DNA of 40,568 nt from an uncultured Granulicella sp. Its GTDB lineage: Bacteria; Acidobacteriota; Terriglobia; Terriglobales; Acidobacteriaceae. The notes beneath the pieces are model-generated. The model had not been told where the DNA came from. It made no database searches and saw nothing but the letters and a program-made list of their open reading frames with translations. Location of the stretch: the NCBI GenBank assembly GCA_937873265.1, contig CALMVL010000041.1, positions 1 through 40,568 of the forward strand, written 5' to 3'. The position numbers and the translations under genes are program-made. Of this stretch, positions 18,730-36,128 are shown one piece after another (the first letter of the stretch is position 1; every line of letters starts with the position of its first letter).

Positions 18730-18760
18730 AAAAGAGGCACTCGGCAAGAGTGCCTCTTTT
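18730..18760. terminator. Probable bidirectional intrinsic terminator (end of rplQ on +, end of diguanylate cyclase gene on -)
   Basis: AAAAGAGGCACTC-GGCAA-GAGTGCCTCTTTT, 13-bp perfect stem with A/T tracts on both sides, between convergent stops. Confidence 0.9.
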
Positions 18761-22785: not shown

Positions 22786-25700
22786 TTAGCTGCTGACCGG
22801 GGCTGCCGCTGCCGCCTCGGCCGCTTCCCTGCGAACCACCGCCGCATTCCGTCCAAGCTCTGCGGCCATCGTCTCCGTCGTGAACGTTTCAATGACATCG
22901 CCTACATGGATGTCCTTGTACCCGGCGAGGTCGATGCCGCACTCGACGCCCGACCGCACCTCAGACACGTCGTCTTTGAACCGCTTCAGCGATCCGATCT
23001 TGCCACGCCAGATCTCGTTGCCCTCACGCAGCAGACGAACCTGCTGATCTCGCCGGATCAGGCCATCGCTTACGCGGCAGCCTGCAATCTGTCCGACCTT
23101 GGTGATCTTGAAGACGTTCAGCACCTCCGCCCTACCGGCGTAGTTCTCCTTGTAGACCGGCTCGAGCAGGCCGTACATCGCCTTGGTCATCTCATCTTGC
23201 AGTTCGTAGATGATCGAGTGCAGTCGAACTTCAACGTTCTCGCGATCCGCAAGATCCTGCGCCTTGCGCTCCGGCCGTACATTGAAGCCAATCACCACTG
23301 CATTCGAAGCAGAAGCGAGCAGGATGTCGGACTCGGTGATCGCGCCCACACCCGAGTGCAGTACGCGCACGCGAACCTTCTCGGTCGACATCTTCTCGAG
23401 CGAATCGGCCAGAACCTCAACCGATCCCTGCACATCGCCCTTCATAATCAGGTTCAGGTCCTTCACGCCGGCCTGCTTGATCTGCTCTGCCAGGCCTTCG
23501 AGCGACACGCGGCTCGACTTCGCCAGCTGCGCCTCGCGTTCCTTCATCTTGCGGTACTGCGCAATACCCTTGGCCTTGTCGCGGTCCGCCATGACGAGAA
23601 ACGTGTCGCCCGCATCCGGCATACCCTCGAGACCCAGGATCTCCACCGGAGTCGATGGCCCAGCCTCTTCAACAGGTCGCCCGCGATCGTCAAACATCGC
23701 GCGGATTTTGCCGAAGGTGTTGCCGACAATATAGCTGTCGCCCGTGCGCAGCGTTCCATTTTGGACCAGCACGGAAGCCACAGCTCCGCGACCACGATCG
23801 AGCTTCGCTTCAATAACGGTGCCGACCGCAGGCCGGTCCGGCGTCGCCTTCTGCTCGTTCGTATCGGCAACCAGGCAGATCATCTCTTCCAATCCATCCA
23901 GGTTGAGCCGCTTCTTGGCCGAAACCTGAACGAACTCGATGTCGCCGCCCATCGACGTCGCCTGCACGCCGCGTGCAGCCAGCTGCTGCATCACGCGCGA
24001 AGCATCCGCTTCAGGCTTGTCGATCTTGTTCACCGCAACAATCATCGGCACCTTCGCCGCCCTTGCGTGATCAATCGCTTCAAGCGTCTGCGGCATCACG
24101 CCGTCATCGGCCGCCACAACCACCACAACAATGTCCGTGACCTTCGCACCGCGCGCACGCATGCGCGTGAACGCCTCGTGCCCCGGTGTATCCAGAAAGA
24201 CAATTTCGCGCCCAAATGCCGGCGAATCCGGCTTGGTGATCTTTACCTTGTACGCACCGATGTGCTGCGTAATGCCGCCAGCTTCGCCCGCCGCAACGTC
24301 GGTCATCCGGATCGCATCGAGCAGGGAAGTCTTGCCGTGGTCGACGTGGCCCATTACCGTGACCACCGGAGACCGCACAACCTCCACCAGGCCGCTCGTA
24401 TCCTCAAGCAGACCTTCGATCGCCTCGTTCTCCAGCTGCTCTTCCACTGAGATCACGTCGGCGTCCGCGCCAAACTGCCGCGCGACATCCTTCACCAGTT
24501 CGCCGTCCAGCGACTGGTTGACCGTCACAAACACGCCGCGCATCAGCAATGTTGCAATCAGGTCTTTTCCGCGAACGTCAAGCTTTTCTGCTAGATCCTT
24601 GACGCTGATCCCTTCTGTGACCGTGATCGTCTTGGTGATGGGCAGCGGCTCGCGCGACGTCGGCGCTCCGCCAAACCGCGGCGGAGGCGTAAAGCCCTTC
24701 ATCGGGCCTTCTTTGCTTTTCTCGTAGCGCTGTCCGCCGCGCCTTTGTCCAGGGCGCGCCGGCCGGGGTGCTCCAGGCGCCTCGCCCGGACCGGGCAGCA
24801 GACCGCCGGCTCCCGGAGGTCCACCCGGTCGTGCGCCGAATCCTGGACGTGCGCCAAAGCCAGGTCGTGCTCCTCCCGGAGCAAACGGAGGCCGCCCCGG
24901 AGCTCCGCCCGGACCGCCAGGGGTCGTGCGCGTCGGATGCATCGGACGTCGAGCGCCCGGGGGACCCGCAAACCCAGGTCGTTGCCCCGGAGTACCCGGA
25001 GCTCCGGAAAATCCAGGTCTTTGCCCCGGAGCTCCTCCCGGTCCACCCGGACCCTGTGGCCGTGGCCGCTCAAAGATCGGCCGTCCCCGCTGCACCGAGC
25101 CCGGTGCTGGCGGAGGAGCCGTATACGTCGGCCGCGGCCCGGTCTGCGGCATGATCACGCGCCGCACCGGTGTCGCGGGAGAGGTCTGCCCCGCTGCCTC
25201 AACCGCCGGCGCCGACGGGACGGCGGTCTCGGCAGATGTCGCGCTCGTCGCTTGATCGGAAGCGCTCGTCGGCTCGGGCGATACCGAACTGGGCTCGGGC
25301 GCCGGAGCCGCCACGGGGGCGGACACGGCTGACGCCACGGTTGACTCAGGCGCCTGAGTGGCCGCAGCTGCCGCCGCGGCACTTGCAACGGGCGCGCTCG
25401 CGGGGAGTGTGCTCTCGGCTGCAGTCTGTGGCGCACGCTGTGGCGCGGAGACGGGAGCCGCAGCCGGAGCCGGCGAAGTCGTTGCCGGGCGAACTGTCGG
25501 AGCACTCGCCGGAGGCGCAGCCACAACCACGGGACGCTCCGGACCACCAGCAGGCGGACGCACAATGACCGGACCGGATGGTGGACGGCTCGCAATCGCC
25601 GGTGCCTGCGGCAGCGCAACAATATTCGCTCCCTGACGCGGCAAGGGAACGATCCGGCGCGGAGACGAGGCCGGCGATGCCGGCACCACCCTGGGCGGCT

Positions 25701-26172
25701 GAGCCGCCGTCGGCGAGGGGGTCGGCGGTGCGACCGCGGCAGGCGGTCTCGGCACACCGCTCGGCGGCGCCACGACCGGTCGCACCGGTGCTCCCCCGGC
25801 AGCGGGAGGTCGGGCCGGAACCGAAGCCGGCGATGCTGTCACCACCGGAGACCGCGGTGCCGGAGGAGCTGCCTTCGCCGCAGCCTCCGCCTGACGCCGC
25901 TCCAGAATCGCGCGCATCGCATCCCCCGGCTTGGACGCCTTCGACAGATCGATCTTCGAAGCGGACTCGTTGGCGGATGCCGCCAGACGTGAGGCTGCCC
26001 CTCGGCTTCCACCACCCTGGATGTAGCCGCGGACCTTCTCCGCCTCGTCTTCCTCAATCGAACTCGAGTGGGTCTTCTTTTCGGTCACACCAACCGCCGT
26101 CAGCGCATCCAGAATGGACCTGCTCTTAACCTCAAGCTCTCGCGCCAAATCATTAATTCGAACTTTGTTCAT
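22786..26172 (-). CDS. infB: Translation initiation factor IF-2 with long Pro/Ala/Gly-rich linker
   Basis: [49 protein letters not shown]-terminal IF2_[22 protein letters not shown]. Confidence 0.98.
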
Positions 26173-26304: not shown

Positions 26305-27939
26305 CTAACCACGACTGCCACGGTCGTGCTCATCGGAGCCGACAACCTCGTCGGACACCTCTTCGCTGTCTCTCACGAGGCCGTCGATCGTGTCGTTCTG
26401 GAGCTCAATCTGCTCTTCTCGTGCATCCGAGTCGTCATTCGCGTCGCTCGCCGACTCCCTCTCTTCCTCGTCCGCGATGTCCTCGGTCGAGATTCCGTTC
26501 AGCTCCTGCGCCTCGCCAAACTCCGCGTCTTCCGCCAGGATCTCCTCAGGTGTCTTTGCCATGGATACCGTCTCCTCCGTCGTGTTGTCGGCGCTGCTTT
26601 CGGCAACAGCGCCATCCCCAGAAGTCTCTGATGCCGCGGCCGTCGCCGGACGCGCCTCACCCTCGTCGTACTGGCCGAAGTAGTGCCGCACCGCCGACGA
26701 GATCTTCTCGACCGTCTTTTCGCCGATCCCCGGCACCTCTTCCAGCTGCTCCGGCGTCATGTCCGCCAGCTCCTCGATCGTGGTCACGCCCGCGGCAATC
26801 AGCTTCTCCAGAATCTGCTCGCCCAGCTCCGTCACCTGTTCGATCGGCGTCGTGGGGCCGCCGCTCATCGCGGTCATCTGCTGCTCGACCTCCTGACGCT
26901 TCTCCTCTTCGCTCTTGATGTCGATCTTCCATCCCAGCAGCTTCGCCGCCAGCCGGACGTTCTGCCCTTTTTTGCCGATCGCCAGTGAAAGCTGCGTGTC
27001 ATCGACAATCACCTCAATCTGCTTTTCGGCCAGATCCGTGATCGACACCCGGCTCACCTTTGCCGGCTGCAGCGCCTTTTCGGCGAAGGTCGTGATCTCC
27101 TCGGAGTACTCGATGATGTCGATCTTTTCCCCGCGCAGCTCGCGGATGATGGACTGCACACGCATGCCCTTCATGCCGACGCACGCGCCCACCGGATCCA
27201 CGTCCTTGTCCCGGCTCATCACCGCAATCTTGGTCCGCTCGCCCGCCTCCCGCGCGATCGCCCGCACCGTCACCGTCCCGTCGTAAATCTCCGGAACCTC
27301 GCTCTGGAAGAGGTTCTGCACCAACACCGGCGCCGCCCGGCTCACGATCACCTGCGGCCCTTTTGCCGCACGATCGACGCGCAGCAGCACGACGCGCACC
27401 CGCTCGCCCACCGCGAACTGCTCCAGCCTGCTCTGCTCGCGCTTGGGCATTCGCGCCTCCGCCTTGCCCAGGTCGAAGATCACGTCCATCGGCTCCAGCC
27501 GCTTCACCGTGGCTGTCAGCACCTCGCCCGCACGGTGGTTGTACTCGTTGAAGACCCTATCGCGCTCGGCCTCGCGCACCTTCTGAAAGATCACCTGCTT
27601 GGCCATCTGCGCCGCAATCCGGCCCAGCGGCGTCGTGTCCTTATAAAATCGCAGCTCGCCGCCGATCTCAACCTCCGGCGCCAGCTCGCGGGCCTGTTCG
27701 AGCGTCAACTGGTTCGCCTCGTCTTCCACCTCATCCGGCGTTTCCACCACGGTCTTGTACACATACGCCCGGATCTCGCCCGTCTCCCGGTCCATCTCCG
27801 CGCGCATGTTCTCCTGCGTCTTGTAGTACTTACGCGTCGCCAGCGCGATCGCGTCCTCAACCGCGCCCACCACGATGTCCGCCTCGATCCCCTTGTCGCG
27901 GCTCAACGTTTCAATCGTCTGATACAGAACACTTGCCAT
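26305..27939 (-). CDS. nusA: Transcription termination/antitermination factor NusA with acidic tail
   Basis: SRDKDVDPVGACVGMKGMRVQSIIRELRGEKIDIIEYSE; S1/KH domains, HhH region. Confidence 0.98.
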   Translation of the reverse strand: MASVLYQTIETLSRDKGIEADIVVGAVEDAIALATRKYYKTQENMRAEMDRETGEIRAYVYKTVVETPDEVEDEANQLTLEQARELAPEVEIGGELRFYKDTTPLGRIAAQMAKQVIFQKVREAERDRVFNEYNHRAGEVLTATVKRLEPMDVIFDLGKAEARMPKREQSRLEQFAVGERVRVVLLRVDRAAKGPQVIVSRAAPVLVQNLFQSEVPEIYDGTVTVRAIAREAGERTKIAVMSRDKDVDPVGACVGMKGMRVQSIIRELRGEKIDIIEYSEEITTFAEKALQPAKVSRVSITDLAEKQIEVIVDDTQLSLAIGKKGQNVRLAAKLLGWKIDIKSEEEKRQEVEQQMTAMSGGPTTPIEQVTELGEQILEKLIAAGVTTIEELADMTPEQLEEVPGIGEKTVEKISSAVRHYFGQYDEGEARPATAAASETSGDGAVAESSADNTTEETVSMAKTPEEILAEDAEFGEAQELNGISTEDIADEEERESASDANDDSDAREEQIELQNDTIDGLVRDSEEVSDEVVGSDEHDRGSRG

Positions 27940-28004
27940 TGCTCACTCACCTTCACGTCAACTGCGTTGCTATGCTGTTGCCCAACAAGATCGCTGCTGC
28001 CCAA

Positions 28005-28595
28005 CTAAATCTCTGCGACTAAGTTGGCCTTCTCCACATTGCTCAGGGAAATCTCGATGATCTCCTCGGCCGGCGCCGCCTTCTTCGCCTTGCCTTTCTG
28101 CTTCACCGCCGAAAGATCCAGCGTCAAAAGGTCATCCGCGAACTGCCGCAAGCGCCCCTTCCAGTGCCGGTTGCCGTTGACCGGCGTAAACGTCTGCAGC
28201 TTCACCAAACTTCCGGTAAACCGAAGGTAGTCGGCCGCCGTGCTCAGCTTGCGTTCGAGCCCCGGAGAGGACACCTCCAGTGTGTATTCCGCGCCAGGAA
28301 CCAGATCTTCCACATCCAGAACCGTTCCAAAGTCCTGCGCAAACGCGGCGCAATCCTCATGCGTTACGCCCGACAGCATCTCAACCGGAACACCCCTCGG
28401 CAGCTCGTGTGCCGCGGCCTCGTCCGTTCTTGCCCGTTCCATCAGCGCCGTCCGGCCAGGTGCGTCCTTCTCGACAAACACCCGCAAAAGCCGCTGTTTG
28501 CCCGAGCCCTGAAGCTCTACGTCGACGACCTCCAGGCCGTGCGATCCGGCCACGCGACTTGCCCTTTCCCGTATCTGATCGATTTGTACTGCCAT
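28005..28595 (-). CDS. rimP: Ribosome maturation factor RimP
   Basis: GLEVVDVELQGSGKQRLLRVFVEKD...YTLEVSSPGLERKL; directly upstream of nusA. Confidence 0.95.
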   Translation of the reverse strand: MAVQIDQIRERASRVAGSHGLEVVDVELQGSGKQRLLRVFVEKDAPGRTALMERARTDEAAAHELPRGVPVEMLSGVTHEDCAAFAQDFGTVLDVEDLVPGAEYTLEVSSPGLERKLSTAADYLRFTGSLVKLQTFTPVNGNRHWKGRLRQFADDLLTLDLSAVKQKGKAKKAAPAEEIIEISLSNVEKANLVAEI

Positions 28596-28660
28596 GGAAT
28601 CCGCCGTCACCTACACGCTCGGCCGGCAGCACATCTTCCCCGGCAAAGCCTTCCGAGCAA

Positions 28661-28684
28661 AGAAAAAGTGGGCCTCTGCCCACT
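28661..28684 (-). promoter_or_regulatory. Candidate rimP-leader-like attenuator (terminator hairpin in 5' leader of rimP-nusA-infB)
   Basis: - strand AGTGGGC-AGAG-GCCCACT-TTTTC, about 70 nt upstream of rimP ATG. Confidence 0.7.
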
Positions 28685-29009
28685 CATCTCTTCCGCCACC
28701 CGCCCGCCAACACAGGGCAAACTGCTGCAACGGAACAAAATCGTCTTCCGTCATCATACATCCGATTCAACGCGAGATCAATCCATCGTGCCGTCTCGCT
28801 CGGGAGACCTACCTGCACCCTGAAGCGACGCAACATGACCCGAGATTGCGGATCAGGCCGTCTACCGTTATCCACTCTCTCCTGCAAGCGGCGGTCACAA
28901 CGTCTTCGACCTGCAAGTCGGATAAGCTATGGGGAACTCTCGAGCCTTTCCCAGCGAGCGAGCCTGCACTCCTGGACTCAGCTCCCAGCCTGCCATAGGA
29001 TTCGCACCC

Positions 29010-30533
29010 ATGATCATCACCCCCGTTCCCGAGGCACTCACCTTCGATGATGTCCTGCTCGTCCCCGCCTTCTCCGAGGTCGTTCCCACCCAGGTCAGCA
29101 CCGAGACGCAACTCACCCGGCGCATCACGCTGAACACCCCGCTCGTCTCGGCCGCCATGGACACCGTTACCGAGTCCCGCCTCGCCATCGCCATGGCCCA
29201 GCAGGGTGGCCTGGGCGTTGTCCATCGCAACCTCAGCATCGAGCAGCAGGCCGGCGAGATCGACAAGGTCAAGCGCTCCGAGTCCGGCATGATCGTCGAC
29301 CCCGTCACCATCTCGCCCGAAGAGCCCATCGCCGCCGCCCTTGAGGTGATGCGTCGTTTCAAGATCTCCGGCGTCCCCGTCACCAAAGCCCGCAAGCTCG
29401 TCGGCATCCTCACCAACCGCGACCTCCGCTTCGTCTCCCAGACCGACATCCCCATCGGCAACGTGATGACCAAAACCAACCTCATCACCGTCCCGGTCGG
29501 CACCACCCTCGAACAGGCCGAAGAGATCCTCCACCAGCACCGTGTTGAAAAGCTCCTCGTGGTCAACGACGACTACGAGCTGAAGGGCCTCATCACGGTC
29601 AAAGACATCCAGAAAAAGCTCAAGTACCCCAACGCCTCGAAAGACGACCAGGGCCGCCTGCGCGTCGCCGGAGCCATCGGCGCAACCGGCGACTTTCTTG
29701 AGCGCGCCGCCGAACTCATCCGCGCCCGTGTCGATGCTCTCGCCATCGACTCCGCGCACGGCCACTCTTCGCGCGTCCTCGACGCGGTCGCGCAGGTCAA
29801 ACGGCGCTTCCCCGAGGTCGACCTCCTCGCCGGCAACATCGCCACGTACGAGGGCGCGCAAGCCCTCATCGACGCTGGCGCCGACGCCATCAAAGTGGGT
29901 ATCGGCCCCGGCTCCATCTGCACCACGCGCATGGTCACCGGCGCCGGCATGCCGCAGATCACCGCCATCTCCGAAGCCTTCCGCGCGGCTGAAAAGGCCG
30001 GCATCCCCGTGATCGCCGACGGCGGCATCAAGTACTCCGGCGATGTGAGCAAAGCCATCGCCGCCGGCGCCAACGTCGTCATGATCGGCTCGCTCTTCGC
30101 CGGCGTCGACGAGAGTCCCGGCGAGACGATCCTCTACCAGGGCCGCTCGTTCAAGGCCTATCGCGGCATGGGCTCTCTCTCGGCCATGGCCCAGGGCTCG
30201 GGCGAACGCTACTTTCAGGGCAAGGAAGACATGGACCCGCTCGCGTGCGAGCGCCCCAACCTTACTGCCCGCGAACCGGCCCAATCGAACCGCCTCGCAA
30301 AATTCGTTCCCGAGGGCATCGAAGGCCGCGTCCCGCACCGAGGCCCGCTCGAATCCATGGTCTTCCAACTCGTCGGCGGCCTCCGCTCCGGCATGGGCTA
30401 TCTCGGCTGCGCCACCATCCCCGAGCTCCAACAGAACGCCCGCTTCGTCCGCATCTCCAACGCCGGCCTCCGCGAATCGCACGTGCACGACGTCATCATC
30501 ACCCGCGAAGCCCCCAACTACCACGTCGAGTAG
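29010..30533 (+). CDS. guaB: IMP dehydrogenase
   Basis: [21 protein letters not shown] pair; [20 protein letters not shown] catalytic loop. Confidence 0.98.
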
Positions 30534-36096: not shown

Positions 36097-36128
36097 AAAG
36101 AAGAGCTCGCGATCGCGAGCTCTTCTTT
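36097..36128. terminator. 32-bp perfect palindrome, probable intrinsic terminator after secreted protein gene
   Basis: AAAGAAGAGCTCGCGA|TCGCGAGCTCTTCTTT. Confidence 0.8.

Follow-up and report, generated by a model that had tools for sequence, protein, structure and literature searches.

How the level of NusA, a core transcription factor, is set has been demonstrated chiefly in E. coli and B. subtilis. On the minus strand of a 40,568-nucleotide contig from an uncultured Granulicella sp. of the Acidobacteriota (hereafter the window), a short hairpin followed by a run of U residues stands ahead of rimP, nusA and infB. Does this hairpin regulate the operon by terminating its transcription, and if so, which product would it respond to? 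The locus comprises the following features:

28005 to 28595, minus strand: rimP, first gene of the operon (Pfam RimP_N and DUF150_C, the RimP C-terminal SH3 domain)
26305 to 27939, minus strand: nusA, the gene from which the proposed feedback would come (Pfam NusA_N, S1, KH_5, KH_2)
22786 to 26172, minus strand: infB, encoding translation initiation factor IF-2 (Pfam IF-2, IF2_N, GTP_EFTU)
29010 to 30533, plus strand: guaB, divergent neighbour (Pfam IMPDH and CBS; start at about 29010 inferred from a conserved protein stretch)
28667 to 28684, minus strand: terminator-type hairpin AGTGGGC-AGAG-GCCCACT, with 7 bp, a tetraloop and the core GTGGG/CCCAC (direct reading and terminator scan)
28659 to 28666, minus strand: remaining U-tract, TTTTCTTT (direct reading and alignment of relatives)
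28685 to 28742, minus strand: upstream structured domain, in which P1 (28735-28729 with 28697-28691) encloses P2 (28718-28713 with 28708-28702) (covariation)
28753 to 28781, minus strand: predicted sigma-70-like promoter TTGATC-17-TATGAT (consensus match and alignment of relatives)

The minus strand reads AGTGGGC-AGAG-GCCCACT-TTTTC from 28684 to 28662, as the initial annotation had it, and continues with TTTGC; the arms occupy 28684-28678 and 28673-28667, and the loop 28677-28674. The annotation had placed the hairpin about 70 nt before the rimP ATG (28595), and the distance from the stem measures 71 nt. Its interval, 28595-28684, does span hairpin to ATG, but the conserved element extends upstream to about 28742. 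The core stem has a folding energy of -11.7 kcal/mol, and the hairpin can be extended through a purine-rich stretch into the U-tract, with G-U and A-U pairs at the base of the stem. A C at 28662 breaks the U-tract where most relatives have A or G. The hairpin is the sole site returned by a terminator scan of 27000-30500, for which chance predicts 2.5 sites, and about 8% of Markov-simulated intergenic sequences satisfy a loose hairpin rule. By sequence alone the hairpin is thus within chance and unremarkable, and conservation is decisive. Elsewhere in the window, 18734-18756 and 36102-36123 are palindromes that have T-runs on either strand and probably serve as terminators in both directions.

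The hairpin is not the 3' terminator of an upstream gene, because guaB runs divergently from about 29010; this bears out the earlier observation that no gene ends there, and in related loci guaB likewise starts near the leader. A promoter search found one site upstream of the hairpin (0.4 expected), and the alignment of relatives shows a similar TGTATCAT-type box at the same place. Pfam matches the RimP_N domain of the window's rimP product in two separate pieces, as might be expected if the RimP N-terminal domain contained an insertion.

The case for a real element comes from its conservation in place and sequence among relatives, despite the ordinary scan statistics. The exact stem with TTTT (pattern GTGGGCN{3,10}GCCCACTTTT) occurs in 56 of 61 related genomes, at a single place per genome, compared with one match for the backwards-pattern control on the same genomes; in one of the 56 the pattern fits both strands. 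NusA was matched in 55 of these genomes, and in every one the hairpin precedes nusA on the same strand by about 0.5-1 kb. Of the five genomes lacking the exact form, two preserve the stem by changing both partners of a pair (GTGGGT-GAGA-ACCCAC). In an alignment of 33 sequences six of the seven terminator stem pairs are invariant; the loop, by contrast, is variable. In the phylum at large, 92 of the 150 genomes with a listed place for NusA have, 482-1097 nt ahead of the NusA match, a hairpin of the form GTGGG...CCCACTYTTT. Of the remaining genomes 20 were sampled, and 16 of these carry a variant with a GGG/CCC stem and a U-tract, in nearly all of which the GTGGG arm is kept and the flanking pairs are changed. 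The hairpin is therefore clearly conserved in Acidobacteria, the lack of which the annotation had named as grounds for dropping its reading. In L035 and in the genomes of family f37, the hairpin stands between A- and U-tracts and fits the pattern on either strand; L035 also has a TATACT box to each side of it, and the hairpin may act on divergent transcripts there.

The same hairpin reaches well beyond this phylum. A search through roughly 85,000 species genomes, a sample and not a census, returned at least 115 loci. Among the matches listed, 45 have nusA next, directly or with space for one gene, and a hairpin of the same sequence precedes nusA in more than ten further phyla. The matches listed include Cyanobacteria, Planctomycetota, Chloroflexi, Verrucomicrobia, Gemmatimonadetes, Nitrospirae, Marinimicrobia, Omnitrophota, Ignavibacteria, Acidimicrobiia, Clostridia and several Proteobacteria; an A stands before GTGGG in 91% of those preceding nusA and 67% of the others. 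E. coli has a short form, GGGC-TTTA-GGCCC-T7, upstream of rimP. The annotation had taken the rimP-leader to be described mainly in Proteobacteria, which is wrong: Naville and Gautheret reported a general rimP-leader in most bacteria and call it the most ubiquitous attenuator (Naville and Gautheret, 2010; PMC2965389). The convergent origin that the annotation had entertained is unnecessary, as an identical stem sequence occupies the same locus across phyla.

Which gene the hairpin belongs to emerges from genomes in which the two candidates are separated. Among the matches listed, the 45 loci preceding nusA fall into two spacing classes, one of about 500-760 nt, with room for rimP, and one of 50-190 nt; RimP_N was detected in six of six long-spacing genomes tested and in none of ten short-spacing ones. 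In a sample of Chloroflexota, 107 of 121 genomes lack a RimP_N match. The hairpin stands directly before nusA, at an estimated 36-79 nt, in 21 of the 22 Chloroflexota with the exact pattern, and RimP_N was found in none of these 21. Together, the ten genomes of the global scan and these 21, with G061 and G067 in both sets, make 29 distinct genomes of Chloroflexota, Planctomycetota and Verrucomicrobiota with the hairpin directly before nusA and no detectable RimP_N. The RimP C-terminal domain was likewise absent from all 29, save two sub-cutoff matches in G068, while the same search detected it in all three RimP-bearing genomes used as positive controls. Many of these genomes are drafts in which single absences could be gaps, and the pattern is consistent. 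At several of the rimP-less loci, the closest long reading frame upstream points the other way, which places the hairpin within the leader of nusA itself. The distribution indicates that the hairpin follows nusA rather than rimP, and its persistence without rimP argues for NusA, and against RimP, as the product sensed; on these comparisons we favour NusA as the controlling product. A further short-spacing case lies on the minus strand of L169 (candidate division FCPU426), with a nusA match about 186 nt past the hairpin. Separately, 10 of the 14 RimP-bearing Chloroflexota have a NusA match that starts no earlier than residue 102, which suggests that the N-terminal domain of NusA is divergent in these bacteria.

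In the window's own family the hairpin is accompanied by a further RNA domain. In the genus, a P1 helix (UUCCGUC/GACGGAA) surrounds a P2 helix (GCCG(UG)/(CA)CGGC), whose GCCG/CGGC is changed to GCCC/GGGC in the window. We aligned 36 genus leaders, of which three had no clear P1/P2 at the aligned place and were excluded. In the 33 distinct sequences that remained (alignment A1), 98.5% of cells are paired across P1, P2 and the terminator, and both sides change at four pairs, giving 13 double-change cells. None of 500 shuffles reached this pairing score, and sliding the pairing partner lowered pairing to 38-66%. A covariance model gives the window, itself among the sequences used for building it, 75.4 bits, and among 151 genomes of the class it hits a single site in each genome that it matches. 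Only the genus and some other genera of its family score high; the 25-36 bits obtained elsewhere may be explained by the terminator part alone. In other families, 24 of 39 leaders have a -10-like box 9-60 nt ahead of the hairpin, compared with 9% of random stretches, which leaves scant room for any sensor. These comparisons point to P1/P2 as a lineage-specific addition of the window's genus and some sister genera, and it may tune termination, for instance as a structure that pauses or insulates.

Within about 60 nt upstream of the terminator in the 33 sequences, the RNA pairs with either stem arm no better than shuffled sequence does, which makes a classical antiterminator unlikely, and pairing of P1 or P2 with the terminator arms, considered as an antiterminator, did not rise above shuffled sequences either. 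On the other side of the U-tract, TTTGCTC(T/C)(A/G)A (28655-28661 in the window) is common to the genus and absent in other families. A pairing role for this stretch was likewise not above shuffled sequences; TTTGCTC is a possible boxA-like site or pairing partner. We do not claim an outer GAG/CUC stem beneath the terminator and spanning the U-tract, since 121 of 1,000 shuffles pair equally well.

We consider it probable that the hairpin is a NusA-stimulated intrinsic terminator in the leader of the nusA operon, exerting negative feedback without an antiterminator. RNA polymerase would start upstream of the hairpin, transcribe it together with the interrupted U-tract, and either stop there or continue into rimP-nusA-infB. 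Polymerase-bound NusA would stabilise the hairpin and the pause, such that more NusA would bring more termination with no competing antiterminator. Termination at this site and its stimulation by NusA are both predicted, and the NusA-linked feedback attenuation proposed in the initial annotation seems the best explanation of the locus. A simple model of NusA feedback leaves the conserved P1/P2 unexplained. That the GTGGG/CCCAC core is so strictly invariant also suggests that its sequence is specifically recognised, possibly by a reader other than NusA.

In another reading, the leader of the window's family would be a switch whose P1/P2 domain senses a ligand or protein and is coupled to the terminator. 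P1/P2 shows covariation, and its conservation is limited to the genus and some sister genera; yet it is small (about 45 nt), neither overlaps the terminator stem nor offers an alternative pairing, and other families of the class do without it, and we regard such a switch as unlikely. A different product of the operon could also be sensed, with RimP or IF-2 binding the leader hairpin in place of NusA. rimP directly follows the hairpin in most lineages, and Naville and Gautheret (PMC2965389) mention RimP as a possibility. The 29 genomes with the same hairpin directly before nusA and no detectable RimP_N speak against RimP, though not against IF-2, whose gene infB still lies downstream in many rimP-less loci; control by either of these products appears quite improbable.

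The hairpin might equally be a constitutive partial terminator or insulator that damps transcription into the operon without feedback. A terminator can set a fixed level of read-through, and the antiterminator search came back empty; on the other hand, the core sequence is strongly conserved across phyla, and with guaB divergent the window has no incoming transcription for an insulator to block. This explanation strikes us as rather unlikely. Finally, a nearly invariant stem around a variable loop is what a DNA operator would look like, and the inverted repeat could be a repressor binding site near the promoter. Such an operator would sit poorly with a U-tract directed toward the operon, with the compensatory change of the top stem pair (GTGGGT/ACCCAC) and with flanking pairs that differ in other families and still pair. 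The directional U-tract and the compensatory changes point to RNA structure, and a DNA-level element is very improbable. The reading we retain is that of NusA-stimulated termination.

The element type itself is already known as the general rimP-leader. Going beyond published knowledge, as far as the accessible text of that literature extends, are the hairpin before nusA in 29 rimP-less genomes and the covarying P1/P2 domain. We found no published mention of the hairpin before nusA in rimP-less bacteria in the accessible text, the supplementary lists of Naville and Gautheret aside, and none of a P1/P2 domain upstream of the terminator. One hairpin sequence ahead of nusA in more than ten phyla, retained where rimP is missing, would indicate one very old feedback circuit. 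We tentatively suggest, as a possibility short of an even chance, that the GTGGG...CCCAC hairpin is an ancient, sequence-recognised autoregulatory element that belongs to nusA and not to rimP, survives the loss of rimP from entire lineages and is modulated by P1/P2 in the window's family. The conservation pattern makes the NusA-sensor proposal of 2010 directly testable.

Among known systems, the closest is the general rimP-leader. As described by Naville and Gautheret (PMC2965389), it consists of a GGGc...gCCC stem and a U-stretch, situated 4-130 nt ahead of the first gene of rimP-nusA-infB, with neither a larger aptamer nor a visible antiterminator; NusA was proposed there as the factor, with RimP also mentioned. 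The window has the same leader position, a GGGc/gCCC stem with a U-stretch, conservation across species and, over the roughly 60 nt upstream, no competing antiterminator, so that on sequence and position its hairpin is a member of this class, in line with the rimP-leader-type attenuator that the annotation had claimed. The Rfam family RF01770 (rimP) shares the place before rimP and the terminator hairpin but is a longer model of 102 positions, and it was unmatched in the window and its genome. Rfam searches at the gathering threshold and with E up to 10 gave nothing of relevance; a match to mir-8303 is attributable to chance. The annotation had treated a missing covariance-model hit as telling against it; the hit is indeed missing, but this is uninformative, as RF01770 matches only E. 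coli among 14 control genomes. The model appears to cover only a gammaproteobacterial form, and because it seems to represent only part of the family, annotation pipelines would miss the element in most bacteria.

Experimental precedents exist in other lineages. NusA-stimulated termination in the B. subtilis nusA leader was shown experimentally to control the operon (Mondal et al., 2016, as reviewed in PMC12288461); the window likewise has a terminator in the leader of the nusA operon, where control by NusA is inferred. In E. coli mutants with reduced NusA termination, transcripts of the operon rise (PMC6511841). Distal interruptions of the U-tract are common in NusA-dependent terminators (PMC8060035), and the C at 28662 is an interruption of this kind; given that it can extend into the U-tract, the window's hairpin may exceed a typical NusA-dependent terminator in strength. 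Transcription toward rimP-nusA in S. agalactiae stops 31 nt past its start, ahead of these genes, and NusA feedback was proposed (PMC4448216). That leader too is a short terminator element upstream of rimP-nusA-infB, whereas the window's hairpin begins about 60-65 nt after the predicted start owing to P1/P2. Set against the general rimP-leader, the window's family thus adds a covarying domain upstream of the hairpin, and rimP-less genomes of other phyla carry the same hairpin directly before nusA.
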